From Desulfovibrio sp. (GTDB lineage Bacteria > Desulfobacterota > Desulfovibrionia > Desulfovibrionales > Desulfovibrionaceae), in contig JAITSV010000051.1 in assembly GCA_031287575.1 (NCBI GenBank), positions 33,897 to 90,728 of the forward strand: a DNA stretch of 56,832 nt, in the 5' to 3' direction. Made by a program: the position numbers and the translations under genes. Below the pieces are notes generated by a model, which was not told the origin of the DNA, made no database searches, and saw only the letters and a list, made by a program, of their open reading frames with translations. Positions 15,401 through 56,079 of this stretch are shown piece after piece; positions within the stretch are counted from its first letter, which is position 1, and each line of letters begins with the position of its first letter.

Positions 15401-15407
15401 CACTCCA

Positions 15408-16948: not shown

Positions 16949-17047
16949 GCTCCGGCACCATATAGGGAGGGGGCCGGAAGGTCCGGAACCCGAGTGAATT
17001 TGAAGACAGCGGAAAATCGTAACACCATGCACCAGGAGAAACATCCC

Positions 17048-17494: not shown

Positions 17495-17560
17495 TGTTTC
17501 CGGCGGCGGCGCCCCGGTGCCGCCGCCCTTTCCCTCCAGCTTTACGCACAGGTATCCGCC

Positions 17561-18862: not shown

Positions 18863-18988
18863 CAGGCAGCATGTTCGGGCGGCACGGGGGCAGGCCGCCA
18901 CGGGCGCGGATGACGAAAGATTTCCCACGCCTTACGGGCGGGCCCACGCCCGCCGCAACAACCGGGCGCACGCCCGGCAGGCACGCAC

Positions 18989-19600: not shown

Positions 19601-20058
19601 ACCGGCACACCCACCGCGCGGATGCAACGCACCCCGTATGCGCCGACCGGCGCGCAGGGTTCACGCTCATCGAGATCATCGTCACGGTCGTGCTGGTCGC
19701 CCTGGTAGGCGTGATGATGCTTTCCGTGACGGGTACGGCCCTGCGCGGCAGCGCCGAAAGTTATGGCCGTGCCCTTGCTCAGGCCCAACTGACCGCCATC
19801 ATCGAATCCATGACAGCCGATTACCGCGCCCGGTACATGGAACAGGAAAACCCGATCACCACCATGATCACCAGCATCGGGGCCGCAGGGTCCACCCAGA
19901 ACAATGCCTATGGCGCCTACACCGTGGTGGTGAACCGGCGCATTCGCTTCGACGGCACCGCGCCCAATTTCGCCGAAGTTGCCGATGCCAATGGCGACAT
20001 GCTGCGCGTGACCATAGAGGTGAACGGTTCCACCGCCACCACCCTGTTCTCGCGCTAG
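19597..20058 (+). CDS. Minor pseudopilin (GspI/PilV-like)
   Basis: 153 residues. A 21-residue leader ends in RRAG before FTLIEIIVTVVLVALVGVMM with Glu at +5. The remaining ~110 residues form a small globular domain ending TLFSR. The gene starts at the ATG overlapping the previous stop by 4 bp and ends 9 bp before the giant prepilin-like gene, so it is one of a coupled series of minor pseudopilins. Confidence 0.85.
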   Translation: MNRHTHRADATHPVCADRRAGFTLIEIIVTVVLVALVGVMMLSVTGTALRGSAESYGRALAQAQLTAIIESMTADYRARYMEQENPITTMITSIGAAGSTQNNAYGAYTVVVNRRIRFDGTAPNFAEVADANGDMLRVTIEVNGSTATTLFSR

Positions 20059-20067
20059 GGGGATGCC

Positions 20068-23000
20068 ATGAACGACAAGGGCTTCACCCTCATCGAGACC
20101 ATCGTGGTGCTGGTTCTGACGGGCATGCTGGCCGCCGTGGCCGGCGTGGGCATCGCCACCGGGGCGCGCGGCTTCGTGGCGGCGCGCGAGGCCAGCGAAA
20201 TGGCCCAGGAAGCGCAACTGGCCATGGACCGCCTGAGCCGTGACATAATGGAACTGGTGGACATACCGGCCAACAGTTCCTCCACCTTGCTGGTGCTGCG
20301 CAACGTGGGCGCCCGGGGGACGGCGCAATTCGACCGGTCCATCCAGTACGTCGCCGACGCACGCGCCATCCGCATAGCCGACGGCACCGGCGGCGCGGCC
20401 AACGGCGATACCCTCATCGACAACGTGACCAATTTCAGCTTTGCCTACCTGCGGCAGCAGGAAGACGGCACACAGCTGATCTCGTCCAGCACGTGGGCGT
20501 CCGATGCGGATTCGCGCCTGCTGGCGGCCGTGGACGTCACCTTCACGCTTACCGCGCCGGGTGGCACCTCCCATGTGTTCACCAACCGCATCGTGCCGCG
20601 CAACAACGAAAACCGGGGCGGCAACGTCGAAAGCGTTCGCCCCCCTTCGCTGGCACGCTACGACGTGTGCTTCGTGGCCACGGCGGCGGCCGGGTACGGA
20701 GACCACCCCGTGGTGGTGCAACTGCGCGAATTCCGCGACAGGCTGCTGCTGCCGTGGTCCGGCGGGCGGGCACTGGTACGCGCCTATTACGCCGTGGGGC
20801 CGGACATGGCCCGCGTGGTGGCCGCGCACGAGCCGTTGCGGGCGGCAACCCTGGCCGTGCTGACGCCGGTGGCCGCGCTGGCGGGGCTGGCCGTGCATGC
20901 GCCCGGCTGGCTTGCGGCCATGGTGGTACTGGCCGTGCTGCTGGCGGGCGCAGCCCTGCGCGCCCTGCGCCCGCGGGGGCAGGACGATGAGGCATCTCCC
21001 GCCACGCATTCCGACGGCCAGCGCGGGGCGGTGCTGCTGAGCGCCATTGTCACCATCGTGGCCTTTTCGGTGCTGGCCGCCACCATGGTGCCCATGATGA
21101 CCGGATCCATGATGGGGGAAATCGCCGCCGTGCAGGGCGACCAGGCCTACTACCTTGCGGAATCGGGCTTTGGCGCGGCGGGCAGCATGTTTCTTGCCGC
21201 CGGAACGGAACAGGCCCGCAAGGACCTGCTGGAAACCATGGATGGCTCCACCTACACCTTCGCGGGCAACGCGGGCTCGTTCACCCTGGCCATCGAACCT
21301 TACTGGTTCGAAGTGACGGCCAAGAACAGCAACACGCTGACAACCAAGGTCTACGGGCACCCGCCAACCCTGCCCACCTCCCGCCCGGGCCGGCTGCGCA
21401 TCGGCACCGGGTCCATCGTGTATCCCTACAGTACCATCGGGGTATCCGGGGATGCCGTCACCTTCACCCTCACGGGCACCACAGCGACGGTACCGGCGGG
21501 CACGGACGTCTATCTGACCGGCAACCCCAGCGCGAGCGGCACCGTGACCGAGCGGGGCAACCTGACCCTCACGACCGACCACGCGGCGGCCTTTCCCGAC
21601 GTGAACGGCATGTTCACCATCCGCGACGCATCGACCGGCCAGACGGGGCGCATTTCGTACGTATACCGACGCAAGAACGGCAGCACGCTGGAAGACGTGC
21701 GCCTGGTGGAAGGCCAGGGGGTTTCGTGGAGCAACATATCCCTTACCACCGCCTCCGAAGTAACGCTGGAAGCATACCTGCGCCTGCATTCCACCGGCCG
21801 CGCCCCCGGCGGCCTTACGCGCGAGGTCGTCTACAACGTGCCCATCGGCTGGATTCTGGGCGGCGGCAACTTCAGCAAGGAACAGTACCAGGATACCTTC
21901 GACACACTGAACGCATGGTTCACCGGCGGTTCGTCCCAAGGGCAGCTGGGTTCGCACGCCATATCCAGCGGTTCGTTGCGTATCACCGGAATGCAGACGG
22001 CGGCCACGTCCGCCCTTGGCAACCTGTTTTCCTGGTTCGGCGGCAGCAACCAGTGGAGCACGCTGTTCTTCAACTACGGGGTCACCAACATAAGCTTTGG
22101 CGCAGGTTGGCTGGATACGCTGGGCAATTCCAGCTATGACATGCAGTTCAAGACCCAGGTGGCCAACCAGGGCAATGAAGGGCAATATTTCGGCGGCGTG
22201 CTGTTCAGGGGGCGCAACTACGGCAACAGCGACCTTGACGGATACGGGCTCTCGTTCGTGCGGTTCCGGCTGGAGCAGGACATGCTCCTGTTCATCACGG
22301 GGCCGTGGTATCTGCCCGGTGACGTTCCGGCATCGCTCATTCCGGGGTACCAGAGCGTGGACAACCCCGGCCCGCTATTTCCCTCCACGTACCAGACCAT
22401 CACCATCGGCAACATTCTCCTCGGTTCGCGCAGCAGGCTTTCACAGCCTGCCATACTGCTGTGGGAACGGCGCAACGGGAATTTCAACTGGCTGGCCTAC
22501 AAGCTGCTGGGGCAGTCATCCGGCATCATCACCTACAACGGCAGCGGGCCGACCTACAGCCTGAAGGACTGGTCTTCATTGCTCCTGCGGCTCGTGGAAG
22601 GCCAGGAAGTATCTTTCCGCAATGGCGGCGGTACCGACGGCGCGGGGGGAACCCTGCGCATAAACTACGGCGATGCCATAAGCACCACCAGCGGCGCCAC
22701 CGCCCGCGTCATCGGACAACCCATCGTCACCGACGGCGATTGGGCGTCCGGCTCCGCGCAGGGCACACTTGTGCTCACCAACGTGGACACGTCGCAGGGA
22801 ACCTTCGGCAACGGGCAGGCACTCAAGGTGAACAACGTGCAGCATGCCGTGCTGAGCGCCGCGGGGGTGGGCGGCAAAACCAACTTCATCCGGGTGTACT
22901 ACGGGGACAACAACACCAGCAGTTCCACCACGGGCGACGCCACCCCCTACAACCCGACCTCGCCGGGCGCCAACACCTCGTACACCACCAGCCAGCGCAT

Positions 23001-23364
23001 CCGGAACCCGCGCATCACCACGAGCGCCAGCGACAAGCTGAACTGGATACCCGACGACTACGAGCAGTGGACCTCCGCCACGGACTTTTTCTCCCTGGTG
23101 CAGTGGGACGGCGTGAATACCTCGGTATCCGGCGTAACCTCGCTGGGTGAACGGCTGAACAACACCAATCTGAGCAACACCATAGTGCGCAGTACCAACC
23201 TGCTCTCCCCCACGTATGATGCAAGCAACCCCGACTACACGCCGCAGGAAGGCATAGCCATCGTCACCAGCGGCCCCACGGGCGATAATTTCTACTTCGA
23301 CGATTTCGGCTTGCAGCTTGACGTACGCGGCGGCAAGGGCTTTCTGCCGCCCATCCAGCAGTAG
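20068..23364 (+). CDS. Giant composite: prepilin-like + CFI-box + PilX-like + beta-rich passenger
   Basis: 1098 residues in one uninterrupted frame with AGGGGG before the ATG. Residues 1-190 form a GspJ-like pseudopilin with a five-residue leader (MNDKG/FTLIE). Residues 201-275 match the CFI-box module (CFVATAAAGYG, LREFRDRLLLP, AYYAVGP), which I know mainly as a C-terminal sorting-type domain. A hydrophobic helix follows (281-299). Residues 319-375 restart like PilX/GspK N-termini (QRGAVLLSAIVTIVAFSV, then DQAYYLAESGF). Residues ~380-1098 are Thr/Ser/Gly/Asn-rich, probably beta-sandwich repeats, and could be an adhesin tip comparable in position to MshQ. It may be a fusion of two genes; no frameshift is seen. 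Confidence 0.75.
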   Translation: MNDKGFTLIETIVVLVLTGMLAAVAGVGIATGARGFVAAREASEMAQEAQLAMDRLSRDIMELVDIPANSSSTLLVLRNVGARGTAQFDRSIQYVADARAIRIADGTGGAANGDTLIDNVTNFSFAYLRQQEDGTQLISSSTWASDADSRLLAAVDVTFTLTAPGGTSHVFTNRIVPRNNENRGGNVESVRPPSLARYDVCFVATAAAGYGDHPVVVQLREFRDRLLLPWSGGRALVRAYYAVGPDMARVVAAHEPLRAATLAVLTPVAALAGLAVHAPGWLAAMVVLAVLLAGAALRALRPRGQDDEASPATHSDGQRGAVLLSAIVTIVAFSVLAATMVPMMTGSMMGEIAAVQGDQAYYLAESGFGAAGSMFLAAGTEQARKDLLETMDGSTYTFAGNAGSFTLAIEPYWFEVTAKNSNTLTTKVYGHPPTLPTSRPGRLRIGTGSIVYPYSTIGVSGDAVTFTLTGTTATVPAGTDVYLTGNPSASGTVTERGNLTLTTDHAAAFPDVNGMFTIRDASTGQTGRISYVYRRKNGSTLEDVRLVEGQGVSWSNISLTTASEVTLEAYLRLHSTGRAPGGLTREVVYNVPIGWILGGGNFSKEQYQDTFDTLNAWFTGGSSQGQLGSHAISSGSLRITGMQTAATSALGNLFSWFGGSNQWSTLFFNYGVTNISFGAGWLDTLGNSSYDMQFKTQVANQGNEGQYFGGVLFRGRNYGNSDLDGYGLSFVRFRLEQDMLLFITGPWYLPGDVPASLIPGYQSVDNPGPLFPSTYQTITIGNILLGSRSRLSQPAILLWERRNGNFNWLAYKLLGQSSGIITYNGSGPTYSLKDWSSLLLRLVEGQEVSFRNGGGTDGAGGTLRINYGDAISTTSGATARVIGQPIVTDGDWASGSAQGTLVLTNVDTSQGTFGNGQALKVNNVQHAVLSAAGVGGKTNFIRVYYGDNNTSSSTTGDATPYNPTSPGANTSYTTSQRIRNPRITTSASDKLNWIPDDYEQWTSATDFFSLVQWDGVNTSVSGVTSLGERLNNTNLSNTIVRSTNLLSPTYDASNPDYTPQEGIAIVTSGPTGDNFYFDDFGLQLDVRGGKGFLPPIQQ

Positions 23365-43436: not shown

Positions 43437-43550
43437 ATGGCACAGCCATTGCTTTTGGAAATGCAGGACATGCACCACGGCAAGCCCCCCATTGCATTGC
43501 GCGGTTGTCACCACGTCTTCCGGAAAGACGCAACAGGATACCGACTATGA
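43437..43550 (+). CDS. Small ORF coupled to the exporter gene
   Basis: A 37-residue frame starting at an ATG with a good ribosome site (CAGGAGAAAAT) and ending in a TGA that overlaps the exporter ATG (ATGA). It has no hydrophobic segment; it is His- and Met-containing (MQDMHHGKPP). It may be a leader peptide that couples translation to the exporter. Its protein function is unknown and it could be non-functional. Confidence 0.45.
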   Translation: MAQPLLLEMQDMHHGKPPIALRGCHHVFRKDATGYRL

Positions 43551-44305
43551 ATCTCATGGAACTTTCCACAATAGCGGCGGCGGGATTTCTCTCCGCCCTC
43601 ATCAAGAACGGCGTGGGTGTCGGCTCGGGCATCTTTCTGCTTCCCGTGCTCACGCTGGTGTTTCCCGCAAAAACGGCATTGGGCATAGGCGCGCCCATCA
43701 TGCTGGGGTCCGACATCATAGGCTTGCGCAATTACTGGAGGGAATGGGCCAGCACGCGGGAGTTGCTGTGGTTGCTGGTGCCGGCCGTGCCCGGCCTGCT
43801 GCTGGGGACGTGGCTCATTCCCGTCATCCCCGGGCATGTCTTCCGGATAGGCGTGGGCGTGTTCGGCATGACCTATGCGCTGGGCATGCTTTTTCCCCGG
43901 TCCCGCATCGTGACGGCATGCACACGCCTGCTGCCGCGCCCCCGGCCCGGCGCCAGAAGATGCAGCGCCGTCTTTTACGGCATGCTGGGGGGAATCGCCA
44001 CGGTCATGTGCCATGCCGGAGGGCTGGTGTGGTCCCTGTACCTCTTGTCGACGCAGAAGGATCGGCGCGTATTCGTGGGGACCATCGTTTTGTCGTTCGC
44101 CATAACCAATCTGTACAAGACATTCGCCTACCTGCACATCGGGATACTCGACACACAGACGCTGCTGATAATCGCGTTTTCGTTGCCAGCAATATACCTT
44201 GGATCATTTGTGGGAAACATCCTGAACAAGCGTTCGCACCATCGCATGTTCAGAATCTCTGTCCTTGTCGTCATATTCATCGTGTCGCTTCTTCTTATGA
44301 AATAA
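43547..44305 (+). CDS. TauE/SafE-family (sulfite/organosulfonate) exporter
   Basis: A 252-residue integral membrane protein with about eight hydrophobic segments and the family repeat seen twice (FLSALIKNGVGVGSGIFLLPVL; VFYGMLGGIATVMCHAGG). Members export sulfite, sulfoacetate or related anions. Placed before the symporter and the frd-fum-suy operon, it would remove sulfite released by SuyAB. The start overlaps the preceding small ORF. Confidence 0.88.
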   Translation: MNLMELSTIAAAGFLSALIKNGVGVGSGIFLLPVLTLVFPAKTALGIGAPIMLGSDIIGLRNYWREWASTRELLWLLVPAVPGLLLGTWLIPVIPGHVFRIGVGVFGMTYALGMLFPRSRIVTACTRLLPRPRPGARRCSAVFYGMLGGIATVMCHAGGLVWSLYLLSTQKDRRVFVGTIVLSFAITNLYKTFAYLHIGILDTQTLLIIAFSLPAIYLGSFVGNILNKRSHHRMFRISVLVVIFIVSLLLMK

Positions 44306-44503: not shown

Positions 44504-45736
44504 ATGTCCAAAGGCAATTTCTATTCAAGGATACCATTGCCCATCCTCGTTGTGGGCTATCTGATCGTAGGTCTGGGTCTTGGATACGCATTTCCGAAAA
44601 ACGAAATCATCGGCGCCCTGCACATCAGCGGAACATACTTTCCCAAGACCATCGTCACCTTCGCGGCATTGCTGATTTTCAACCTGCTGGCCGCGGCCAT
44701 GGCCAAGCTGATGCTGTACCACAAGGAACAGGCCGGCAAGCTGTTCGGCCTGATTTTCGGGGCGTACCTGTTCATGGGATGCGTCTCCCTGCTGTACGTC
44801 ACGGGCTGGATATCCGTGCTCTCCGACATACCCATGTTCCTTCCCGGCCTGGATGTGCCCGGCCCCATGGCGTGGGTTGCCCAGATCGGGCACACCTTCG
44901 CCAACGTCCTTACCCAACAACCCCTGTTGCAGGCGCTGGTGGGAGCCATGCTGCTGGGGTGGCTCGCCGCGAAGTTCGAGCAACTGCATCCCATTGCCCA
45001 CGGCTTCATTGCCGTCGGCGACGCGATTCTGTGGTTTTTCAAGAAGTTGTTGTGGTACTACCCCATCATGATCGGCTGCCTCGCCATCGGCATTCCCATG
45101 AAGTTCGGGGCCAAGGGGATGGCGCTGTATGGCCAGGGGGTGCTGTGGGTCATGATCGTCACCTGTACGTGGGTGGCCCTGATGATCCTGCTCTGTAAAT
45201 TCTCCACCAAGCGCACCTGGAAGCAGATACTCTCCTATTACGGCGCGGTGTGGCCCACGGGATTCGGCACCGGGGGATCTTACGACACCCTGGCCGTGAA
45301 CATCATTTCCGCCGAACGCGACCTCGGCCTGCACGAAGACATAGCGGAGGTCTCCATCGTCTTCGGCACGGTGCTGAACAAGAATTGCAGCACCATGTCC
45401 GTGCTCATCGTGACCATCATCGTCTCCCAACTGCTGGGCATTCCCATTTCCCTGTCCGAAATACTGATGCTCATTCCGCCGGTCATGATCCTGGGGCTGG
45501 AATCGCCCGGCATTCCGGGCGGGGCGGGATACTTCATGTCGCCCATCATTGCCGTGCTGCTGGGGGCTCCCGACCCCGCGACCTACGTCACGACGTTCGT
45601 CGCCGTGTTCAGCGGGCTGATCCCCATGTTCTCCACCGCAGGCAACACCACCGATGACGGCGTGGTGGGCGCGTTCCTGCAGGATCACTTCGGGCACTGG
45701 ATTTCAAGCCACTCGCTGCAGAGGGAGAGCGCATGA
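44504..45736 (+). CDS. Dicarboxylate/cation symporter-like transporter
   Basis: 410 residues with about 9-10 hydrophobic segments and features of the sodium/proton:dicarboxylate (SDF/DAACS) family, including a Ser/Gly/Thr-rich region (GTGGSYDTLAVN), NKNCSTMSVLIVTIIVSQL and a late NTTDDGVVGAFL motif. Typical substrates are C4-dicarboxylates or acidic amino acids. Here it is a candidate importer for the (sulfo)dicarboxylate or malate/fumarate used by the following operon. GAGGAG precedes the ATG. The next small gene overlaps its stop. Confidence 0.8.
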   Translation: MSKGNFYSRIPLPILVVGYLIVGLGLGYAFPKNEIIGALHISGTYFPKTIVTFAALLIFNLLAAAMAKLMLYHKEQAGKLFGLIFGAYLFMGCVSLLYVTGWISVLSDIPMFLPGLDVPGPMAWVAQIGHTFANVLTQQPLLQALVGAMLLGWLAAKFEQLHPIAHGFIAVGDAILWFFKKLLWYYPIMIGCLAIGIPMKFGAKGMALYGQGVLWVMIVTCTWVALMILLCKFSTKRTWKQILSYYGAVWPTGFGTGGSYDTLAVNIISAERDLGLHEDIAEVSIVFGTVLNKNCSTMSVLIVTIIVSQLLGIPISLSEILMLIPPVMILGLESPGIPGGAGYFMSPIIAVLLGAPDPATYVTTFVAVFSGLIPMFSTAGNTTDDGVVGAFLQDHFGHWISSHSLQRESA

Positions 45737-46317: not shown

Positions 46318-46333
46318 TGGCACCATCCTTGCT
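46318..46333 (+). promoter_or_regulatory. Sigma-54 promoter of the frd-fum-suy operon
   Basis: TGGCACCATCCTTGCT matches the -24/-12 consensus TGGCAC-N5-TTGCW with GG and GC exactly 10 bp apart. Transcription would start near 46344, 48 bp before the first gene. A sigma-54 activator gene closes the same gene group. Confidence 0.88.
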
Positions 46334-46391: not shown

Positions 46392-48113
46392 ATGATGCAA
46401 ACGCACAAAGTCGATCTTCTCATACTTGGAATGGGAGCCGCGGCAGAGCTTGCCGCAATATACGCGCACGATGCATTGCCGTCACTGAATATCCTGATCG
46501 CCTCGAAGGCGCTGAAAGGGAAGGGCGGATGCAGCCGAATGGTGCAAGGCGGGTTCAATGTCGTCCTGAACCCCGAAGACTCCCATGAAAAGCACCTCAT
46601 GGATACGCTCAAGGGCGGTCAGTACATCAACAATCAGGATCTCGCGAAGCAGCTCGTCGAGGAGGCCACCCCGACGGTCAAGGAGCTGGAGACCATTTGC
46701 GGGTGTTTTTTCGACCGTTTTCCCGATGGGCGCGTCCATCAGAAGCCCTTCGCGGGACAATCCTTCGACCGCACCGTGCACAGGGGCGACCTGACGGGCA
46801 TCGAAATCATCAGCCGGACCACGGAGCAGGTCTTCAAACGGCGCATTCCCGTGCTGGAGGAAACCCGCGCCGTGGAACTGCTGCTGGACGCCACGGGCAA
46901 GACGGTCACCGGCGCCCTGCTGTACGACATGCGGCGGGGTGAATTCCTGGTCGTGGAAGCCGCGGCCACCTTGGTGGCCACGGGCGGCGGCCCCACCCAG
47001 TACCGCTTCCATGCCCCCGGCCCGGAAAAATCCGCGGACGGCATCGCCATGCTGTACAGGGCCGGCGTCCGCATGCGGGACATGGAAATGATCCAGTTCC
47101 ACCCCACCGGGCTCATCGTGCCGGGCAGCGTGGTGGCCGGCGCACTGCTGGAAGAAGGGCTGCGCGGCGCGGGAGCGCACCTCTACAACGGCGAGGGCGA
47201 GCGCTACATGCAGCGCTACGCCCCGGACGTGGCGGAACGCGCCACCCGCGACGTGGTGAGCCGCTCGGCCTACATGGAAATGATGGCCGGCCGCGCGTGT
47301 CCCGAGGGCGGCGTGCAGATCGACGCCGCCCACATGGGCGCGGACTTCGTGCTCAAGTCCTTCCCAGGCATGGCCGAGCGCTGCGCGCAGTTCGGCTACG
47401 ACCTGGTCCGGGGGCGGGTTCCCGTCTCCCCCACGGCCCACTTCTTCATGGGCGGCGCAGAGATCAACACCGACTGCCAGGCCAGCCTGCACAAGCTCTT
47501 TGTCGCGGGCGAAGACGCCGGGGGCGTGCATGGCGCCAACCGCCTCGGGGGCAACGGCATCGCGGAATCCTGCGTCTATGGACGCCTGGCGGGCAAATCG
47601 CTGGCCCGGTTCCTGTCGAAAGACCGCGGCATCGCGAAGACCGCCCCCGGCCTCGTGAAATCGATGGTCGCCCGCCTGCGGGAACCACTGTCGCGCATCG
47701 GCGGGCGGAGCCCGCTGCAAATCCGGCATGACATCCAGGAAACCAACTGGCTCAAGGTAGGCATCATCCGCAACCAGAAGGACCTGGACGAAGCCCTGCC
47801 CATCTTCCGCAGCCTGGGCGACGACGTGGAACGCGCGTCCGTTGCTCAAAGCAACGCCTGCAACATGGTCTACAACGTATGGCTCGATACGCGCAGCATG
47901 ATCGACGTCTCGATCATGGCCGCGACCTCGGCGCTGCTGCGCGACGAAACGCGCGGCGCGCATACCCGGCTGGACTTCCCCGAACAGCGCGACGACTACG
48001 GCCTGTTCAACACGTTTCTCTGGCGCGGCGAGGACGGCATGCCCGTTACGGAAAAGAAGCCCGTCGAGTTTACGCACAAGCCTGTTGAAGCCTGCCAGAA
48101 ATGGAAAAAATGA
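46392..48113 (+). CDS. Fumarate reductase/succinate dehydrogenase-type flavoprotein without covalent-FAD His
   Basis: 573 residues. The FAD domain begins DLLILGMGAAAELAA. Active-site residues of the FrdA/SdhA family are present: H237 in QFHPTG, Glu in LLEEGLRG, the proton-shuttle Arg region ATRDVVSR, H350 in HFFMGG and R384 in GANRLGGNG. At the position of the His that binds FAD covalently (SHT in FrdA/SdhA) this protein has C47 (GGCSRMVQGG), so FAD should be non-covalent; in relatives this lowers the potential and favours fumarate reduction. There is no signal peptide. The start (ATG 46392, 46395 or TTG 46386) is uncertain because no clear ribosome site is seen. Confidence 0.9.
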   Translation: MMQTHKVDLLILGMGAAAELAAIYAHDALPSLNILIASKALKGKGGCSRMVQGGFNVVLNPEDSHEKHLMDTLKGGQYINNQDLAKQLVEEATPTVKELETICGCFFDRFPDGRVHQKPFAGQSFDRTVHRGDLTGIEIISRTTEQVFKRRIPVLEETRAVELLLDATGKTVTGALLYDMRRGEFLVVEAAATLVATGGGPTQYRFHAPGPEKSADGIAMLYRAGVRMRDMEMIQFHPTGLIVPGSVVAGALLEEGLRGAGAHLYNGEGERYMQRYAPDVAERATRDVVSRSAYMEMMAGRACPEGGVQIDAAHMGADFVLKSFPGMAERCAQFGYDLVRGRVPVSPTAHFFMGGAEINTDCQASLHKLFVAGEDAGGVHGANRLGGNGIAESCVYGRLAGKSLARFLSKDRGIAKTAPGLVKSMVARLREPLSRIGGRSPLQIRHDIQETNWLKVGIIRNQKDLDEALPIFRSLGDDVERASVAQSNACNMVYNVWLDTRSMIDVSIMAATSALLRDETRGAHTRLDFPEQRDDYGLFNTFLWRGEDGMPVTEKKPVEFTHKPVEACQKWKK

Positions 48114-48157
48114 TTCTTCACCGACATATCAACGCAGCACATTCCGGAGAAAACAAC

Positions 48158-48499
48158 ATGGAACAACAGCAGAAGTTCGAGTACCGCACGCCACTGCAAT
48201 GGGGAGACCTTGACCCGTACCGGAGAGGTCGCGCGCACGTCGGCATGTGGGCCTGGCTGATGCAGCGCATCAGCGCGGTATTCATTGTCGTATTCCTCAC
48301 GTTGCACCTCTTCTTCACCTACAAGCCGTTTCTTCAGTTCATGCTGCTGGTCGTGGTGGCGTTTCACGCGGCGCTGGGGCTGCGGGTCATCCTGCTGGAC
48401 TTCAATCTGGCGGACATCAAGCGGCAGCGGAACCTGGCCTACTGGTTGCCGGGCATGGGCCTTGCCGTGGTGCTGCTCGTCTGGGGCATCATCTACTAA
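48158..48499 (+). CDS. SdhC/FrdC-like single membrane anchor subunit
   Basis: 113 residues with three hydrophobic helices. It carries the complex II signature RISAVFIVVFLTLH (R37, S39, H50) and a second His in FHAALGLRVILLD (H70), enough to ligate one heme b and form a quinone site. Only one membrane subunit is present, whereas most complex II enzymes have two short ones or one long one. CCGGAG precedes the ATG at 48158. It lies between the flavoprotein and the Fe-S/Rieske fusion. Confidence 0.82.
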   Translation: MEQQQKFEYRTPLQWGDLDPYRRGRAHVGMWAWLMQRISAVFIVVFLTLHLFFTYKPFLQFMLLVVVAFHAALGLRVILLDFNLADIKRQRNLAYWLPGMGLAVVLLVWGIIY

Positions 48500-48511
48500 C
48501 CGGAGGCCGTC

Positions 48512-49855
48512 ATGACATCCCAACCGACATCCCGCACCGTCAGGGTGTTCCGCTACGACCCGGCCGAGGGCGGGGATGGGCATTTCGATGCCTACACGCT
48601 GGACATCCCCGCGCCGGAAACCACCACGATACTCGACGTGCTGCTGCGCATTCAGCGCGAGCAGGACCCGAGCCTCTCCTTCCGCTTCGCCTGCCGCGTC
48701 AACATGTGCGGTTCCTGCGGCATGGTCATCAACGGCCGCGAGGCCCTGGCCTGCAAGACCAACGTCGCGCACCTGCCCCCTGCGCAGGACATCACCATCC
48801 GTCCCTTGAACCACTTCCCCGTGATCAAGGACCTTGTGGTGGACATGGACCCGTTCTTCGCCAAGTACGAGGACGCCCTGCCGTTCTTCGAGCCTGCCGT
48901 GGAACACGACGAACCCTATGCCATCAAGCCCGACAACCAGGCACGCATCGACATCGGCATGGCCACGGACTGCATAGCCTGCGGCTGCTGCGTTTCGAGC
49001 TGCACCATGGTCAATCATCACGCGGGGTACGCTGGACCGGCCGCCCTCAACCGCGCCTTCACCCTGCTGGCCGACCAGCGTGACGGGCTGTTCGAAGCCC
49101 GCCTGACCCGGGCGCTGGACTCCTGCTACGCCTGCCGCACCGAATTCAACTGTACGGAAGTCTGCCCCAAGCAGATTAGCGGGACGCGGGCCATCAAGTA
49201 CATCCAACGTCTGGCGCTGAAGCACCTGAAATCGCTCAAGCCCCTTTCCGCCCATCCGGTGGAGGAAGCGGCGAAAGAAAGGGCGAAGGACGCGCCGCAG
49301 CCCGTCGCCACGGGCTGCTCCTGCGGGGGGCATCACCATGACGCTCCTGCGGCTTCTCCGGCTGCCGCAACGGCATGCCCCCCCGCCGGAGCGGAAGCGG
49401 CGTGCGCCTCGCGCCGCACGTTCCTGACGGCCGCCGTGGGCGCAGGGGCCGTGGCCGTGCTCGGCGGCATCCTGGGCACAGCGGCGGTGGCGCCGACCCA
49501 GGTCCGCACACCGGCGCAATGGGTGCCCGTGGCCGCGCTCAAGGACATCCCCGTGGGCGAGGTCAGCACCCTGCCGCTCGGTTACACGCGCACCCAGGCG
49601 TTCCACAGCGAACAGGTGCAGTCCACTCTGCTGGTGCGGCACGACGCCCCCGGCCAGGTGCTCTGCTTCAGCAATGCCTGCCCGCATCTGGGCTGCGCCG
49701 TCAGTTGGGATCCGCTGTCCTCGCGCTTCAAGTGCGCCTGCCACGGCGGTGCGTTCGACAGGGACGGCAACGTCATCGCCGGCCCGCCGCCCAGGGGGCT
49801 GACCCGCCTGCCCTGGAAGGTCGAAGACGGCATACTCAAGGTCGAGGTGGTGTAA
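48512..49855 (+). CDS. FrdB/SdhB iron-sulfur subunit fused to a Rieske protein
   Basis: 447 residues in one frame. Residues 1-240 are an FrdB/SdhB subunit with the [2Fe-2S] site C61, C66, C69, C81 and two further clusters from C154-C157-C160-C164 and C205/C208-C214-C218. A Cys/His-rich linker follows (TGCSCGGHHH). ASRRTFLTAAV (R301-R302) is a twin-arginine motif ahead of one membrane helix (about 305-327). Residues 335-447 are a Rieske domain: C390-x-H392-L-G-C395 and C408-x-C410-H411. The cytosolic FrdB part and the periplasmic Rieske part would sit on opposite sides of the membrane. I know of no described complex with this fusion. Its stop overlaps the next start (TAATG). Confidence 0.93.
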   Translation: MTSQPTSRTVRVFRYDPAEGGDGHFDAYTLDIPAPETTTILDVLLRIQREQDPSLSFRFACRVNMCGSCGMVINGREALACKTNVAHLPPAQDITIRPLNHFPVIKDLVVDMDPFFAKYEDALPFFEPAVEHDEPYAIKPDNQARIDIGMATDCIACGCCVSSCTMVNHHAGYAGPAALNRAFTLLADQRDGLFEARLTRALDSCYACRTEFNCTEVCPKQISGTRAIKYIQRLALKHLKSLKPLSAHPVEEAAKERAKDAPQPVATGCSCGGHHHDAPAASPAAATACPPAGAEAACASRRTFLTAAVGAGAVAVLGGILGTAAVAPTQVRTPAQWVPVAALKDIPVGEVSTLPLGYTRTQAFHSEQVQSTLLVRHDAPGQVLCFSNACPHLGCAVSWDPLSSRFKCACHGGAFDRDGNVIAGPPPRGLTRLPWKVEDGILKVEVV

Positions 49856-51327
49856 TGAACATCGGCAAACATATCGGATGGGAAACGCATCTCAAGCCCT
49901 TCCTCTACAAGAGGCTGCCGGACGGCACGGGCTGGAGCGCCGTTCTGGGCACGCTGTGCGCCCTGGTCTTCCTGCTGATGGTGGTCACGGGCATCGTGCT
50001 GGCCTTCTACTACGTGCCCTCCCCTGACAAGGCGTGGAGCTCCGTCCGCTACATCTCGAACGAGGTGCCCGCCGGGCAACTGCTGCGCGGCCTGCATCAC
50101 TGGGGGGCGGGCGCCATGGTGCTGCTGGTGTTCGTGCACCAGATGGTCACCTATTTCCACGGCGCATACGTGCATCCGCGCCAGGGCACGTGGATCACCG
50201 GGACCTGCCTGTTTCTGGTGACGCTGGGCCTCGGCTTCACCGGCTACCTGCTGCCGTGGGACATGAAGGCCTACTGGGCCACCGTGGTGGGGGCCAACAT
50301 TCCTAGCCAGTACCCGCTGGTGGGCAACGCCATCACCCGCTTCATCCTGGGTGGGGACGGCATGTCGGGATTCACGCTGACGCGCTTCCACTCCATCCAC
50401 ACCCTGTTGCTGCCCTGCCTGCTCGTATTCTTCCTGGCCATACACATCTACCTCATCCGCCTGCACAACCTCTCCGACCCGCGCGAGAGGCTGGGCGGCG
50501 AGCCTCTGCCGCCCCCGGCCGAAGGCACCCCGCCGTATCGTTTCTATCCCGAGCACATGCACCGCACGGCCATCGCCTTCGGCATCCTGTTCTGCGTCCT
50601 GCTGGGGCTGGCCGTCTGGGCTCCCGCGCCGCTGGAACAGAAGGCCGGCACCTTCATCGCCGACTACCTGCCCCGGCCGGAATGGTACTACATGTGGATA
50701 TTCCAGTTGCTGACCTACTTCACCGGCACGTGGGAGGCCGTGGGCAGCCTGGTCATTCCCGTGGGCGGCGCGCTGCTGATGCTCTGCGTGCCCTTCATGA
50801 GCGAAAGCCGCATGAAGGGGGTGGTCAACAGACCGGTATCCATGGGCATCGGCCTGACCTTCATCGTCTGCGTCGTCTACCTGACCGGACAGGCCTATTC
50901 CGAGGCCGCGCCCTACAACAAGGTCGTGCTCACGCCCCCCGGCGCCCCCGGTTCCCCCGGTTCCCCCGGTTCCCTCGGTTCCATGACGGAAGAGGTTCGC
51001 CAGGGCCTACGCATCTACGTGGAACGCGAATGCGCATACTGCCACAACATTCAGGGCCAGGGCGGCCACCGCACCGGTCCCGATATGTCCAACATGAAGG
51101 CAAAGGGGCGCACGGTCGACTACCTTTCCGCCTACATCAAGGACCCCAAGTCCAAGATGGCCTCCACCTCCATGCCTTCCTACGACCTTCGTCCCGATGA
51201 GCTGAAGGCCCTCGCCGCCTTCCTGCTGGCCCTCGACTTCAGCCGGGGCTCGGCGGTGCCCATGCGCACGGAAGACGTGCGCGACAGCATTCCCGACACC
51301 CTGACCGTTCCTCCGGCCATCCGCTGA
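49855..51327 (+). CDS. Cytochrome b6/subunit IV fused to a c-type cytochrome domain
   Basis: 490 residues. The N-terminal cytochrome b has heme ligands H81/H95 and H182/H197; the 15-residue spacing of the second pair is the b6f type. The Qo-site motif PEWYY (275-279) lies in the subunit IV part. A Pro/Gly/Ser linker (GSPGSPGS, 9-bp repeats, 362-375) leads to a cytochrome c domain with C393-AY-C396-H397 and a probable axial Met440 (STSMPSY). With the preceding Rieske domain this makes a complete bc-type quinol oxidase/reductase core, including its own c heme. Confidence 0.93.
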   Translation: MNIGKHIGWETHLKPFLYKRLPDGTGWSAVLGTLCALVFLLMVVTGIVLAFYYVPSPDKAWSSVRYISNEVPAGQLLRGLHHWGAGAMVLLVFVHQMVTYFHGAYVHPRQGTWITGTCLFLVTLGLGFTGYLLPWDMKAYWATVVGANIPSQYPLVGNAITRFILGGDGMSGFTLTRFHSIHTLLLPCLLVFFLAIHIYLIRLHNLSDPRERLGGEPLPPPAEGTPPYRFYPEHMHRTAIAFGILFCVLLGLAVWAPAPLEQKAGTFIADYLPRPEWYYMWIFQLLTYFTGTWEAVGSLVIPVGGALLMLCVPFMSESRMKGVVNRPVSMGIGLTFIVCVVYLTGQAYSEAAPYNKVVLTPPGAPGSPGSPGSLGSMTEEVRQGLRIYVERECAYCHNIQGQGGHRTGPDMSNMKAKGRTVDYLSAYIKDPKSKMASTSMPSYDLRPDELKALAAFLLALDFSRGSAVPMRTEDVRDSIPDTLTVPPAIR

Positions 51328-51356: not shown

Positions 51357-52238
51357 ATGTCTTCATTCGACTACCGCATCGTGGAAGAGGCGGCCAAGCA
51401 GAGCTACATCAAGGCCCTGTGCGACCTGCCGCCGGACGTGCGCGCCGCCCTGCGCAAGGCGCGCGACCGCGAGACCGTCCCCACCGCCCGCGCCATTTTC
51501 GAGGCCATGTTCAAGGCCATCGACATCGCGGACGCCAAAAAGACCCTGCTCTGCCAGGACACGGGCCTGCCCATCTACAAGGTCCGGGTGGGGTCGCGGT
51601 TTCCCTGGAACTGTGCGGCCATCAAGTCCTGCCTCTACGAGGGCGCCCGGCGGGCCACGCAGGAATTCCCCTTCCGCAGCAGTTCCACGCACACCCTCAC
51701 CCGGATCAATCCCCAGACCTCGGTGGGTCCGGGCCTGCCCGTAATCTACTGGGATTTCGTCGAGGACAGCGACGCGCTGGACATCCTGATGGTGCCCAAG
51801 GGCTCCGGCTCGGAGAACATGAGCAAAATGCAGATGTTCTACCCCCAGCACGGAATCAGGGCGGTCAAGAAGTTCATTCTGGACACGGTGGTGGAAAGCG
51901 CCGCCAACCCCTGCCCCCCCGGCGTCATCGGGGTGGGCCTCGGCGGCACCTCCGACCTGGTGATGCGGCTCGCCAAGGACGCCATCTGCCGCCCGGTGGG
52001 CCAGCGCCACCCCGATCCGCAGTTCGCCGAGATGGAGGAGGAACTGGAAGAGGCCATCAACGCCACCGGGCGCGGCCCCATGGGGCTTGGCGGCGACGTG
52101 TCCTGCCTGGCCGTGCACATCGAGCACGCCTACACCCACATCACCCAGAACCCCGTGGCCGTGAACACCCAGTGCTGGCCCGCCCGGCGGGCGCGGGCGG
52201 TGGTCCTGCCCGACGGCTCAACGACCTACGGGTACTAG
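51357..52238 (+). CDS. Class I fumarase / L-tartrate dehydratase alpha subunit
   Basis: 293 residues, the normal length for the alpha subunit of two-subunit class I hydro-lyases. Three Cys for the [4Fe-4S] cluster lie in LLCQDTGLPIYKV, NPCPPGVIGVGLGGT and VNTQCWPARRA. AAGGAG precedes the ATG. The next gene is the beta subunit. Sequence alone does not separate malate/fumarate from tartrate/oxaloacetate; the neighbouring fumarate-reductase-type flavoprotein favours fumarase. Confidence 0.9.
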   Translation: MSSFDYRIVEEAAKQSYIKALCDLPPDVRAALRKARDRETVPTARAIFEAMFKAIDIADAKKTLLCQDTGLPIYKVRVGSRFPWNCAAIKSCLYEGARRATQEFPFRSSSTHTLTRINPQTSVGPGLPVIYWDFVEDSDALDILMVPKGSGSENMSKMQMFYPQHGIRAVKKFILDTVVESAANPCPPGVIGVGLGGTSDLVMRLAKDAICRPVGQRHPDPQFAEMEEELEEAINATGRGPMGLGGDVSCLAVHIEHAYTHITQNPVAVNTQCWPARRARAVVLPDGSTTYGY

Positions 52239-52247
52239 GAGACAACC

Positions 52248-52841
52248 ATGAGCACCACGCACCATCTCACGTCCCCGTTTTCCGAAGCGGACATCCGCGC
52301 GCTGCACGCCGGCGACATCGTCTACTTCGACGGCCCGCTGTTCGGCATCCGCGACCTGACGCAGATCTACATCTTCGACCAGGGCAACAAGCCCCCGGTC
52401 AGCCTCGAAGGCATGCCCTGCATCCATACCGCCCCCAGCCTGCGCCAGGTGGACGGCAAATGGGAAAAGATCTGCGTGGGCACCACCACCAGCACGCGCA
52501 TGGACCGCTTCACGCCGGGGCTGATCGGCACCTACGGGGTGCGGGCCATCATCGGCAAGGGCGGCCTGTACCAGGGCAGCCTGGACGCCATGCACACGTA
52601 CGGGGCGGTGTACCTGGCCATCGTCGGCGGTGCCGCGTCCCTGGAGACGGAACAGATCGAAGAGGTGGAGGCCGTCTACTTCGAGCATCTGCACCCCGAA
52701 GCCCTGTATCGCTTCCGGGTGAAGAACTTCGGCCCCCTGACCGTGGCCATGGATAGCCATGGGCGGCACCTCTACGACGAGATCGCCGCGGAAGCCCAAC
52801 GGAGGCTGCCGGACATCTATGCCAGGCTCGGCGTGGCCTAG
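52248..52841 (+). CDS. Class I fumarase / L-tartrate dehydratase beta subunit
   Basis: 197 residues with the C-terminal class I fumarase fold: GDIVYFDGPLFGIRDLTQIYIFDQG, GTTTSTRMDRFTPGLIG, IIGKGGLYQG and a final VKNFGPLTVAMDSHG. It starts 9 bp after the alpha subunit with TAGGAG and forms the active enzyme with it. Confidence 0.9.
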   Translation: MSTTHHLTSPFSEADIRALHAGDIVYFDGPLFGIRDLTQIYIFDQGNKPPVSLEGMPCIHTAPSLRQVDGKWEKICVGTTTSTRMDRFTPGLIGTYGVRAIIGKGGLYQGSLDAMHTYGAVYLAIVGGAASLETEQIEEVEAVYFEHLHPEALYRFRVKNFGPLTVAMDSHGRHLYDEIAAEAQRRLPDIYARLGVA

Positions 52842-52913: not shown

Positions 52914-53198
52914 ATGTCCATCGATTTCCTGGTTCACGAAGCGGCCGACGGCGTCGGCGTCGTGGTGGTGGAAGGCCTGACGGCAGGCCACGAATGCACG
53001 GGATGGGTCATGCAGGAGGACAAGACCGTCCACATCACCCTGCGCAGCGACATTCCCATCGGCCACAAGGTGGCGCTCAAGGACTTCGCCGAGGGCGACA
53101 CCGTGTTCAAGTACAACACGGACATCGGCAAGGTGGTCGCGCCCATCAGGAAGGGCGAACACCTGCACGTCCACAACGTCAAGACCAAGAGGTGGTAG
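52914..53198 (+). CDS. suyA: SuyA-type (2R)-sulfolactate sulfo-lyase small subunit
   Basis: A 94-residue SAF-domain protein of the UxaA/altronate dehydratase superfamily. It has DGVGVVVVEGL, IPIGHKVALKDFAEGDTVFKY, IGKVVAPIRKGEHLHVHNV and the C-terminal TKRW. The separate small subunit followed by a ~390-residue large subunit is the SuyA-SuyB arrangement; sugar-acid dehydratases of this superfamily are usually single chains. AAGGAGGA precedes the ATG. Confidence 0.85.
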   Translation: MSIDFLVHEAADGVGVVVVEGLTAGHECTGWVMQEDKTVHITLRSDIPIGHKVALKDFAEGDTVFKYNTDIGKVVAPIRKGEHLHVHNVKTKRW

Positions 53199-53201: not shown

Positions 53202-54362
53202 ATGGAAAGAAAATTCTTCGGATACCGGCGTGAGAACGGCCGCGTGGGCGTGCGCAACCACGTGGTCCTGCTGCCGCTCGACGACCTGTCCAACGCGGCG
53301 TGCGAAGCCGTGGCCAACAACGTCAAGGGCACCCTGGCCCTGCCCCATGCCTACGGCCGCCTTCAGTTCGGCGAGGATCTCGACCTGTATTTCCGCACCC
53401 TGATCGGCATGGGGAGCAACCCCAACGTGGCCGCCGTGGTGGTCATCGGCATAGAGCCGCAGTGGACGCAGAAGATCGTGGACGGCATAGCCAGAACCGG
53501 CAAGCCGGTGGCGGGTTTCTCCATCGAGCAGAACGGCGACCACAATACCATCTGCAACGCCTCGCGCAAGGCCAAGGAGTTCATGCACTGGGCCACCGAG
53601 CAGCGCCGCACGGAATGCGACGTGAAGGAACTCTGGGTGTCCACCAAGTGCGGCGAATCCGACACCACGTCGGGGCTGGCCACCAACCCCACGGTGGGCA
53701 ACGCCTATGACAAGCTGTGGGAAGACGGTGTCACCCTGCTGTTCGGCGAAACCACGGAACTCACCGGCGGGGAACATCTGGTGGCCGCGCGCTGCGCCAA
53801 CGACGAGGTGCGCAAGAAATTCCAGTTCTTCTTCGACCGTTACGCCAAGGTCGTGGATGACCACAAGACCGACGACCTTTCCGATTCGCAGCCCACCAAG
53901 GGCAACATCGAGGGCGGCCTGACCACCATAGAGGAAAAGGCCCTCGGCAACATCCAGAAGATCGGCCGCAAGGCGCCCGTGGTGGGCTGCCTGGACAAGG
54001 CGGAAAGCCCCACCGGCCCCGGCCTGTGGTTCATGGACTCCTCGTCCGCCGCGGCGGAAATGGTTACCCTGTGCGCCGCCGCCGGGTTCGTGGTGCACCT
54101 GTTCCCTACCGGGCAGGGCAACGTCATCGGCAACCCCATCCTTCCGGTGGTCAAACTGTGTTCCAACCCCCGCACGCTGCGCACCATGAGCGAGCACTTC
54201 GACGTGGACGTCTCCGGCATCCTGCGCCGCGAGATCAACCTCGACCAGGCCGGGGACAAGCTCATTGACATGATGATTCGCACATGCAACGGCAGAAGGA
54301 CCTCCGCCGAGGTGCTCGGGCATCGCGAATTCATCATAACGAGGCTATACGAAAGCGCATAA
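53202..54362 (+). CDS. suyB: SuyB-type (2R)-sulfolactate sulfo-lyase large subunit
   Basis: 386 residues. SuyB/UxaA-type signature stretches are [50 protein letters not shown] (with a conserved Cys), [33 protein letters not shown] and [11 protein letters not shown]. SuyAB is known to cleave 3-sulfolactate to pyruvate and sulfite. It starts 3 bp after suyA. A related C3/C4 sulfonate substrate cannot be excluded from sequence. Confidence 0.85.
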
Positions 54363-54378: not shown

Positions 54379-54403
54379 GTGGGGCCAGCGCGGGCTGCCC
54401 CAC
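54379..54403 (+). terminator. Hairpin between suyB and the regulator gene
   Basis: GTGGGGC / GCCCCAC with an inner AGC/GCT and a one-base bulge, 16 bp after the suyB stop; no T-run. It may terminate or attenuate the operon message before the regulator. Confidence 0.5.
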
Positions 54404-54425
54404 TCGAACGCATGGCGCTGCATAC

Positions 54426-54451
54426 CACGTACCCTTCAGGTGGCATACGTG
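54426..54451 (+). promoter_or_regulatory. Inverted repeat at the regulator's ribosome site
   Basis: CACGTA-N14-TACGTG, with an inner ACC/GGT pair, ends just before the GAGGGAACG ribosome site of the sigma-54 activator gene. It could fold over the site or act as an operator for self-regulation. Confidence 0.4.
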
Positions 54452-54459
54452 AGGGAACG

Positions 54460-56079
54460 ATGAGCGACCTTCCTGACAGGTTTTACCAAGCGCTGCTGCT
54501 GATCAACAACATTCTTGTCCGCGAAGTCACCCAAGAGGGTCTTTTCCAGAGTCTTGCCGCCACGCTGCAACCCCTGGTCAACTGTGACCGATGTAGTCTC
54601 AGCATCTACAATCCAGCCAACGATTCGCTGGAATGGTTCGCGCGGGCCGAAGGGGTCACCGTCACCTGCATGGACGATACGCCCATCCCGCAGCGGGGCC
54701 CCCTGGCCCATGAGGCCATCCGGGCGAAAGCGCCGTACATCGCCCAGGACATCAAGAATTTCGCGTCGTTCGACGCAATACGCAGCATGCACGATGCCGG
54801 ATTGCGTTCGGCCATCGCCCTGCCGCTCATGAGCCGTTCCCAGCCCATCGGCGCGCTCGTCGTTTCCTTCAGGCGGCCGCTACGCAACGACGACACCGAC
54901 CTGGTGGCGTTTCTGGAAAAAATCTCCGTGCAGGTGGCCCTGGCCGTGGACAACATGCTTGCCCACGCCAAGCTCCAGAAGATGAATGCGGAACTGCAAC
55001 AGCGCGTGGGCGATCTGCTCTATCCAGAAGAGACGAGCTACTCCGAACCGCGCTTTTTCTACCGGTGCGAGAGCATGCGCATCGTCATGGAACAGGCGCA
55101 ACTTCTGGCCTGTAGCAACGTACCGGTCCTGATACGCGGCGAGACGGGAACGGGAAAGGAATTCATCGCCCACATCATCCACCGGTACAGCGCCAGAAAA
55201 AACAACAACTTCGTCAAGGTCAACTGTCCGGCCCTGTCCTCGACGCTGTTCGAAAGCGAGTTGTTCGGCCATGCCAAGGGGGCGTTCACCGGCGCCAACA
55301 GCCATCGCGTGGGGCGCTTCGAGATGGCGGACAAGGGCAGCATCTTTCTGGACGAAATCGGCGACCTGGACAAGACGCTCCAGGCAAAACTGCTGCAAGT
55401 ATTGCAGGATTCCAGCTTCGAACGGGTCGGGGAAAGCCGCTCCATCCGGGTGAACGTGCGCTTCATTTCCGCCACCAATGCCGACCTCGGCGCGCTGATC
55501 CAGCGCGGCCAGTTCCGAAACGACCTGTATTACAGGCTGGGCGCGGCGATCATCAATATCCCCCCCCTGCGGGAACGCCTCGGCGAACTGCGCGCCATGC
55601 TGCAACACCTCGTGGGCATTCTTACCGAAGACATGCAGTGCAAGCCCATCACCTTCTCCCGCTCCGCACTGCGCCTGCTGGAAGAGTATCATTGGCCGGG
55701 CAACGTGCGGGAACTTTCCAACATGGTCAAGCGGCTGCTCATTCTCAATTACGGAGGTGAAGTAGAGCCGGCCATGATTACCCCCCTGTTCCAACAGGAT
55801 GCGCATCATCCGGGCATTCGCGACGTGTCCGCCGCGCCCCTGCCTCCGCCTCCCGTAGTGGCGCCCGGCTATTCCCTGGCGGATACCGAGCGGCTGGTCA
55901 TCGAGAAGGTGCTGACGCTGACCAATGGCGTCATCAGCGGAAAAAAAGGCGCTGCCACGCTGCTCGGCCTGCCGCGCTCCACCTTGCTCTACAAGTTGAA
56001 GAAGCACGGGATCGAAATCAGCCGGTACACGCACAGCGTCGCAAACCTCGCGGCGGGCATCACCCACAAAGCGCTCTGA
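54460..56079 (+). CDS. GAF - AAA+ - Fis sigma-54-dependent activator (FhlA-like)
   Basis: 539 residues. The N-terminal GAF domain (about 20-165) probably senses a small molecule. The AAA+ domain has Walker A GETGTGKE (227-234), the sigma-54 contact loop GAFTGA (274-279), Walker B IFLDEIGDLD and the sensor/R-finger region FRNDLYYRLG. The C-terminal Fis-type HTH (about 500-525) reads GAATLLGLPRSTLLYKLKKHG. GAGGGAACG precedes the ATG at 54460. There is no receiver domain, so control is by ligand rather than phosphorylation. It is the obvious activator of the sigma-54 promoter at 46318. Confidence 0.93.
   Translation: MSDLPDRFYQALLLINNILVREVTQEGLFQSLAATLQPLVNCDRCSLSIYNPANDSLEWFARAEGVTVTCMDDTPIPQRGPLAHEAIRAKAPYIAQDIKNFASFDAIRSMHDAGLRSAIALPLMSRSQPIGALVVSFRRPLRNDDTDLVAFLEKISVQVALAVDNMLAHAKLQKMNAELQQRVGDLLYPEETSYSEPRFFYRCESMRIVMEQAQLLACSNVPVLIRGETGTGKEFIAHIIHRYSARKNNNFVKVNCPALSSTLFESELFGHAKGAFTGANSHRVGRFEMADKGSIFLDEIGDLDKTLQAKLLQVLQDSSFERVGESRSIRVNVRFISATNADLGALIQRGQFRNDLYYRLGAAIINIPPLRERLGELRAMLQHLVGILTEDMQCKPITFSRSALRLLEEYHWPGNVRELSNMVKRLLILNYGGEVEPAMITPLFQQDAHHPGIRDVSAAPLPPPPVVAPGYSLADTERLVIEKVLTLTNGVISGKKGAATLLGLPRSTLLYKLKKHGIEISRYTHSVANLAAGITHKAL

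Follow-up and report, generated by a model that had tools for sequence, protein, structure and literature searches.

A complex II-like unit fused to a cytochrome bc module in Desulfovibrio and its possible role in 3-sulfopropionate use

What would a bacterium do with a complex II whose iron-sulfur subunit is also the Rieske protein of a cytochrome bc complex? The question is raised by four consecutive genes in a stretch of 56,832 nt (the window) from Desulfovibrio sp. (assembly GCA_031287575.1, contig JAITSV010000051.1, positions 33,897-90,728 of the forward strand; the source genome totals 4.19 Mb). They encode an FrdA/SdhA-like flavoprotein, an SdhC-like membrane anchor, a fusion of FrdB with a Rieske domain and a fusion of cytochrome b6, subunit IV and cytochrome c (Table 1). 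This run had been described in a first-pass annotation, with which the open reading frames (ORFs) and Pfam domains at 46392-51327 agree. On the evidence of the sequences we propose, with moderate confidence, that the unit is a complex II joined through FrdB-Rieske to a complete cytochrome bc, and that it most likely catalyses the first step in the use of 3-sulfopropionate (3-SP).

The fused unit and its conservation

The FrdB part of the fusion covers residues ~1-245 and is followed by a linker, a twin-arginine motif with a helix (301-324) and the Rieske domain (336-446). The cysteines for the three FrdB clusters (C61, C66, C69, C81, C154, C157, C160, C164, C208, C214 and C218) are invariant in the 16 sequences aligned, and the Rieske part carries both motifs, CxHLGC and CxCHGx, and a membrane anchor, as expected of a cytochrome bc complex. 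The start of the cytochrome b/IV/c ORF overlaps the stop of the fusion ORF. An AlphaFold model of the fusion (mean pLDDT 62.5) has an FrdB-like part, a weak linker, the single helix and a confident Rieske domain, and Foldseek matches its parts to SdhB/FrdB and Rieske domains; the model is poor in the cluster-binding middle part and no docking claim is drawn from it. Linker length varies from about 26 to 74 residues, a range set without L028 and L033, in both of which an earlier pair of arginines was picked up.

The fusion is neither a chance event nor a frameshift, because of 61 loci (duplicates included) in which FrdB is >60% identical, 45 contain a frame of fusion length and the remaining 16 are truncated by the end of the locus. 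Removal of identical cores from 38 fusion-length entries (ORF >380 aa, >60% identity) left 24 copies in 24 genomes of Desulfovibrionales, other Desulfobacterota, Nitrospirota, Acidobacteria and others, and the close copies that are shorter are all cut at a contig or locus end. These 24 genomes set aside the concern, raised in the first-pass annotation, that the fusion might be confined to one assembly and split into two genes; the shared order and fusion that it proposed to look for elsewhere are conserved across several phyla. Within the genus the fusion was found in 3/8 genomes. A sample of the order gave a match in 10 of 297 genomes at E 1e-40, eight with the fusion in one frame, one with its parts on two contigs (G272) and one with FrdB only (G045). 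At family level FrdA of the unit type is present in 12/288 genomes (E 1e-120), 11 of which have FrdB-Rieske in one frame, while the contig of G272 ends inside it. A scan of GTDB contigs returned 31 loci: 17 near full length, one reaching residue 417 (L037), one cut at the contig end (L038) and 12 with FrdB only (L041-L052). Desulfovibrionales account for 13 of the 25 unit genomes. No plasmid record covers 80% of the full fusion.

Twin arginines and the CHGG motif occur in 24/24 aligned fusions (L039 is truncated at its start), with the next Phe in 23; the sole copy without it, L037, departs from the others beyond CHGG, close to the end of its contig. In five aligned Rieske proteins of solved structure the first tuning position is S, A or G and the second is Tyr; the fusion has Gly and Phe there. 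This pair should lower the potential of the fusion's cluster, which lacks the two residues credited with raising it.

The cytochrome b part of the partner protein has two His pairs, providing four b-heme His, and the PEWY motif, as cytochrome bc complexes do; E276 of PEWY is nearly invariant (PDWY in L039). In the c domain, CxxCH and M440 are invariant in all 13 proteins aligned. Matches above 560 bits occur in 13 of the 347 genomes of the order, all of them with the unit; of the scored candidates, each of the 13 genomes has a single cytochrome b/c match at E 1e-20, and the next best, in other genomes, reaches 280 bits. Different cytochrome b proteins (<=280 bits), often in paired copies and unrelated to the unit, are found in G212, G285, G273, G231, G218 and other genomes of the family. 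At 50935-50985 a PGAPGSPGSPGS-type repeat joins subunit IV to the c domain; it is shorter in L002 (same genus) and absent from L003 and L083.

Since fusion and gene order are conserved, and in the genomes of the order this bc type is met only alongside the unit, the natural reading is that the four products form one membrane complex, which we hold to be probable.

The anchor has three helices (22-52, 57-81 and 87-112) in one subunit, against the five to six anchor helices usual in complex II, with invariant His in helix I (H50) and helix II (H70). Its model found no match in the PDB at E 0.001 or better; the best was 6lum_G, one of the membrane chains in succinate dehydrogenase 2 of M. smegmatis (E 0.015), and Wolinella FrdC was weaker (0.58). 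Plasmid-borne relatives, described below, have His in both helices of both anchor subunits (18/18 in nine anchor pairs, by eye); E. coli SdhC and SdhD lack the His that sits late in helix I. Di-heme anchors bind the distal heme with helices I and IV and the proximal heme with II and V. Because each copy brings two conserved His to such a helix pairing, a homodimer could carry two hemes, and the anchor is probably a homodimer of this kind, holding two b hemes.

The flavoprotein clade and its putative sulfonate neighbourhood

The flavoprotein keeps the catalytic residues H232, R287, H355 and R390 (E. coli FrdA numbering, from the alignment). Three other positions are changed, H44 to C, T244 to E and S395 to G, in 35/35 FrdAs of its clade (21 from fusions, 14 plasmid-borne) and in none of nine other homologues: E. 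coli FrdA and SdhA, two canonical proteins of the source genome, two from Chloroflexota, the genome's own TfrA-like protein and two further flavoproteins of its own, one of which lacks most of the catalytic residues. The histidine that covalently binds FAD in complex II, usually if not universally, is replaced by an aligned Cys in all 35 clade members examined; this Cys might bind FAD as a thioether. T244E argues for a substrate other than succinate or fumarate. It is no general mark of non-covalent flavin types, because the TfrA-like protein (L087) retains Thr244 in this comparison, which was made without methanogen TfrA. Identity with thiol:fumarate reductase TfrA was rejected, the flavoprotein scoring 500.5 bits against an NCBIfam cut-off of 718 bits. 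Its best PDB sequence match is subunit A of Mycobacterium smegmatis Sdh1 (class F complex II, 7D6V). In a tree the 21 fusion FrdAs form one clade (support 100/100), which groups with the 14 plasmid-borne FrdAs (95/94, with a long-branch warning). In L022 and L067/L068 (G005, probably the same metagenome-assembled genome) FrdA is split over two frames and the FrdB-Rieske gene is intact.

The genes around the unit point to sulfonates. FumAB lies within 3 kb in 19/19 units with >1.3 kb of sequence past the cytochrome c end (the window included; in L040 it is on the FrdA side), and SuyAB genes adjoin 14 of 25 units, with SuyA alone at the contig end in L025. SuyB is present in 68 of 288 family genomes, namely in 12/12 with the unit and 56/276 without it (Fisher 1.4e-8, kinship ignored), and outside the family in 9/13 unit genomes (E 1e-60). 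The SuyB of the window shares 64-74% identity with proteins on 13 plasmid records, one of them encoded near hpsN and hpsO in Cupriavidus pinatubonensis; beyond these, identity is at most 41%. With this gap, and with SuyA beside it, the pair ranks by sequence as a homologue of sulfolactate sulfo-lyase. A second SuyB of the source genome, 87% identical, lies outside the window (G000:C68:172337-173485).

Table 1. Features of the unit and its surroundings in the window, by position
Feature	Position	Strand	Description
Sigma-54 type promoter	43438..43453	+	First base 67 bases before listed TauE start
TauE-family sulfite/sulfonate transporter	43505..44305	+	
SDF-family dicarboxylate/cation symporter	44504..45736	+	Possible importer of dianionic substrate
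Sigma-54 type promoter TGGCAC-N5-TTGCT	46318..46333	+	First base 74 bases before FrdA start
FrdA/SdhA-like flavoprotein	46392..48113	+	573 aa; Pfam FAD_binding_2, Succ_DH_flav_C
SdhC-like anchor	48158..48499	+	113 aa; Pfam Sdh_cyt
FrdB-Rieske fusion	48512..49855	+	447 aa; Pfam Fer2_3 (9-116), Fer4 (151-222), Rieske (337-431)
Cytochrome b6/subunit IV/cytochrome c fusion	49855..51327	+	490 aa; Cytochrome_B (31-202), Cytochrom_B_C (275-348), Cytochrom_C (383-460)
Fumarase/TtdA-like subunit alpha	51357..52238	+	Proposed 3-sulfoacrylate hydratase
Fumarase/TtdB-like subunit beta	52248..52841	+	
SuyA-like small subunit of sulfolactate sulfo-lyase	52914..53198	+	SAF domain, slightly below Pfam cut-off
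SuyB-like large subunit	53202..54362	+	GD_AH; 74% identical to gene near hpsN/hpsO of Cupriavidus pinatubonensis
Sigma-54 activator with GAF domain	54379..56079	+	Likely cluster regulator

The FrdA clade also reaches plasmid-borne clusters of aerobic organisms, with 17 plasmid records at 42-51% identity, after which identity drops to 34%. Among 72,556 plasmid records, 17 carry this FrdA and 13 SuyB, and six carry both. Three of the FrdA records (CP038201, LR723678 and NZ_CP090580) fell outside the sample and three loci (L101, L103 and L104) have no annotation. The annotated neighbourhoods (n=11) contain TauE in eight cases, a putative sulfate exporter/YeiH in six, a sulfite oxidase or dehydrogenase in two, FumAB in nine and a SuyAB-level pair in two. 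The pair occurs in Methylobacterium oryzae and M. radiotolerans, with TauE, symporter and fumarase; M. nodulans has fumarase, symporter, sulfite dehydrogenase and sulfate exporter. Fumarase, TauE and a sulfate exporter or YeiH are found in Paracoccus versutus, Pseudorhizobium and Pseudomonas MPC6, the last also with a sulfite oxidase, and fumarase and TauE in Sulfitobacter THAF37. Fumarase and a tripartite transporter are present in Sulfitobacter S190, with no sulfur gene within the stretch, and in P. seriniphilus, where a YeiH-family gene lies ~8.5 kb off. Two haloarchaea (L055, L102) have FrdA, FrdB, TauE, a lyase annotated as argH and a distant UxaA pair (34-36%), with no fumarase within the stretch; these clusters are perhaps an archaeal relative of the sulfonate pathway. 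The fumarases that accompany the plasmid clade are of two types, one resembling that of the window (L053, L100, L103; FumA 48-50%) and the other, at 32-36%, no nearer to it than ordinary fumarase is. Taken with the linkage to SuyAB, these neighbours make a C3 sulfonate pathway, in our judgement, the very likely role of the unit.

Proposed pathway and competing readings

3-SP is succinate with one carboxylate exchanged for a sulfonate. In the same way (R)-sulfolactate corresponds to (S)-malate with a sulfonate in it, because replacing CH2COO by CH2SO3 alters the Cahn-Ingold-Prelog order and the same arrangement is then named R; traced back through the fumarase and succinate dehydrogenase reactions, (R)-sulfolactate leads to 3-sulfoacrylate and 3-sulfopropionate. 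We therefore consider 3-SP the likely substrate. FrdA would oxidize 3-SP to 3-sulfoacrylate in the cytoplasm, the fumarase-like TtdAB would hydrate this to (R)-3-sulfolactate, and SuyAB, the homologue of a sulfo-lyase, would cleave the product to pyruvate and sulfite, the sulfite feeding dissimilatory sulfite reductase. Electrons would pass from FAD through the three FrdB clusters and the anchor (probably the two-heme homodimer) to menaquinone inside the complex, and the tethered bc module, with its low-tuned Rieske cluster and a periplasmic c heme with His/Met ligands, would exchange electrons with the same quinone at the Qo site. In the forward direction, which we favour at about even chances, the bc half would oxidize the locally made menaquinol; the uphill step would be pulled by channelling and the Q cycle would retain part of the energy.

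Bilophila wadsworthia grows with 3-SP and forms H2S, and the accessible text of the 2024 report leaves the route in sulfite reducers to be investigated, citing a thesis for a sulfoacrylate-sulfolactate route in an aerobe (PMC11489063); a review of January 2026 calls the mechanism of 3-sulfopropionate breakdown in Bilophila unclear (PMC12890257, accessible part). In the literature searched, sulfoacrylate is named in two papers, one of them on another subject to judge by its title. Cupriavidus pinatubonensis JMP134 degrades 2,3-dihydroxypropane-1-sulfonate (DHPS) via sulfolactate and SuyAB, and sulfolactate cleavage was demonstrated for SuyAB of Desulfovibrio sp. DF1, whose sequence is outside the present comparison (PMC6278857, accessible part). 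The pathway of DF1 and of aerobes shares with ours SuyAB, the products pyruvate and sulfite, and sulfite respiration, but in DF1 sulfolactate arises from DHPS through the action of two NAD-linked dehydrogenases, whereas here a complex II-like enzyme and a fumarase would act on 3-SP (PMC6278857). DsrA is above cut-off in 19 of 25 unit genomes and partial in two more (G048, G314), compared with 0/14 control genomes.

Several findings weigh against this proposal. The flavin histidine is missing, and a covalent flavin, which raises the flavin potential, is said to be necessary for succinate oxidation (PMC10238741, accessible text); the difficulty would disappear if the Cys binds FAD or if the direction is reduction. 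T244E places a negative residue close to an anionic substrate, for which we offer no explanation. A residue signature for sulfoacrylate was sought in FumAB and not found (seven other FumA and one other FumB compared), most plasmid clusters use the fumarase type that is no closer than ordinary fumarase, and the two haloarchaeal clusters have only the distant UxaA pair and no fumarase. Four of the 13 out-of-family unit genomes have no SuyB at E 1e-60 (G082, G351, G356 and G359; G082 has SuyA at the contig end, L025), and in D. cuneatus (L076), L078 and L082 no SuyAB adjoins the unit in the available stretch, SuyB being carried elsewhere in these genomes. There is no convincing DsrA in four unit genomes (G351, G352, G353, G356), and DsrA is expected anyway in Desulfovibrionales, to which just over half of the unit genomes belong. 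B. wadsworthia was not among the 31 loci of the GTDB contig scan, and its inclusion in the scanned set is not established. Heme-copper oxidase was considered as a partner of the bc half, and was found in just 15/25 unit genomes (8/14 controls), which leaves a forward bc reaction without a general sink.

One alternative, which we consider unlikely but which survives best, is that the bc half runs in reverse: an electron from 3-SP, travelling via the b hemes, and another from a periplasmic c-type cytochrome, travelling via the c heme and Rieske cluster, would meet at Qo, where they would reduce menaquinone; the uphill oxidation would then be driven by low-potential periplasmic electrons, proton-motive force or both. 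Succinate-type couples sit above menaquinone in potential, four of the eight best unit assemblies lack heme-copper oxidase, and cytochrome c3-family matches occur in 24/24 unit genomes examined (G005 left out; weak in G349 and G357). The obligatory proximity imposed by the fusion and the CHGG.F motif, with Phe in place of the Tyr of solved Rieske proteins, would also suit such confurcation. However, cytochrome c3 is common in such bacteria regardless, a c heme with a conserved Met ligand usually has a rather high potential, and a reverse reaction would cost energy that could be conserved by other menaquinone reductases. Taken as a whole, it is improbable that sulfite reducers enter 3-sulfopropionate respiration, by what would be its missing first reaction, through quinone-based confurcation in a covalently joined complex II-III.

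It is about as improbable that the fusion is a mere convenience of translation or assembly, with complex II and bc working independently and quinol passing through the pool. The variable linker would allow this, since it does not force tight docking, but no separate FrdB was seen among the 61 close FrdB matches, and in the 347 genomes of the order a bc module of this type was not found apart from the unit.

The first-pass annotation had assigned the flavoprotein to fumarate and succinate or a related substrate. Its gene order and fusions stand, but fumarate or succinate as the substrate is not supported: the SuyAB linkage and the residue changes in FrdA reduce an ordinary succinate/fumarate enzyme to a rival that we think quite unlikely. 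In that case the unit would act as an additional complex II, with bc attached to carry electrons from succinate to cytochrome c, and the fumarase would belong to the same C4 pathway. The complex II catalytic residues are indeed retained, and fumarase and a dicarboxylate symporter adjoin the unit. Yet canonical residues are found in two further FrdA/SdhA proteins of the source genome (L074, L075), one of them with a FumA homologue beside it (L009), and neither the FrdA clade signature nor the plasmid sulfonate clusters fit a C4 enzyme.

Reductive use, with sulfolactate dehydrated to sulfoacrylate and this acceptor reduced to 3-SP as in fumarate respiration, would run downhill, as electron transfer from menaquinol to a fumarate-like acceptor does. 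A non-histidine flavin site suits reduction (PMC10238741, accessible text), but SuyAB and TauE in the cluster indicate desulfonation, the plasmid relatives that also carry a sulfite oxidase or a sulfate exporter are most likely oxidative, and menaquinol-driven reduction needs no bc complex. This is the least probable of the readings.

Comparison with known systems and remaining features

Among known enzymes, two-heme complex II (succinate:quinone reductase, SQR, and quinol:fumarate reductase, QFR) shares with the unit the FrdA and FrdB families, the FrdA fold with its catalytic residues, the three-cluster cysteines, SdhC-type helices and, as in the plasmid relatives, His in helices I and II. 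The unit differs in the absent flavin histidine, T244E, one three-helix anchor instead of two, the Rieske domain on FrdB and the bc module in the operon. With b6-type cytochrome bc complexes (b6f; Bacillus QcrABC is a further one) it has in common a Rieske protein, a cytochrome b with four His and PEWY, a subunit IV part and a c-type heme, but here b, IV and c are one polypeptide, the Rieske domain sits on FrdB, and Gly and Phe occupy the tuning positions. Class F complex II (M. smegmatis Sdh1) also contains a Rieske-type cluster; as described in the accessible part of PMC10238741, that cluster lies in a six-helix membrane subunit, whereas that of the unit is in a bc-type C-terminal domain of the FrdB protein, paired with cytochrome b/c. 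Supercomplexes of alveolates (Tetrahymena; Perkinsus marinus CII2CIII2CIV2) likewise combine complexes II and III within a single assembly, but they are mitochondrial, with II and III separate and apparently no gene fusion, while the two modules of the unit share a polypeptide (PMC10238741, accessible part; PDB titles). Class F and the alveolate supercomplexes are near comparators, and no complex II-bc fusion is described in the titles and abstract openings of the literature searched (most subscription journals being outside its scope), in agreement with the first-pass view that no enzyme of this composition has been described. If the proposal of a fused complex II-bc acting on 3-SP is right, the unit would represent a bacterial respiratory enzyme whose complexes II and III have a polypeptide in common, the only II-III assemblies encountered in this analysis being those of alveolate mitochondria, and its genes would provide a set for 3-sulfopropionate use that ties sulfonate cross-feeding to sulfide formation.

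Strict matches to a sigma-54 promoter number only two in the window (Table 1); shuffled sequences gave a mean of 0.12 and reached two matches in 2/100 cases. Of the 22 loci with upstream sequence, 11 have a site of this type no more than 140 bases ahead of FrdA, a count made without L028, whose upstream sequence is missing. Further upstream in the window, 13694-23364 contains the gene of a T2SSE ATPase of the secretion/pilus type and two ORFs that carry N-methylation motifs; one of these two is 1098 aa long.

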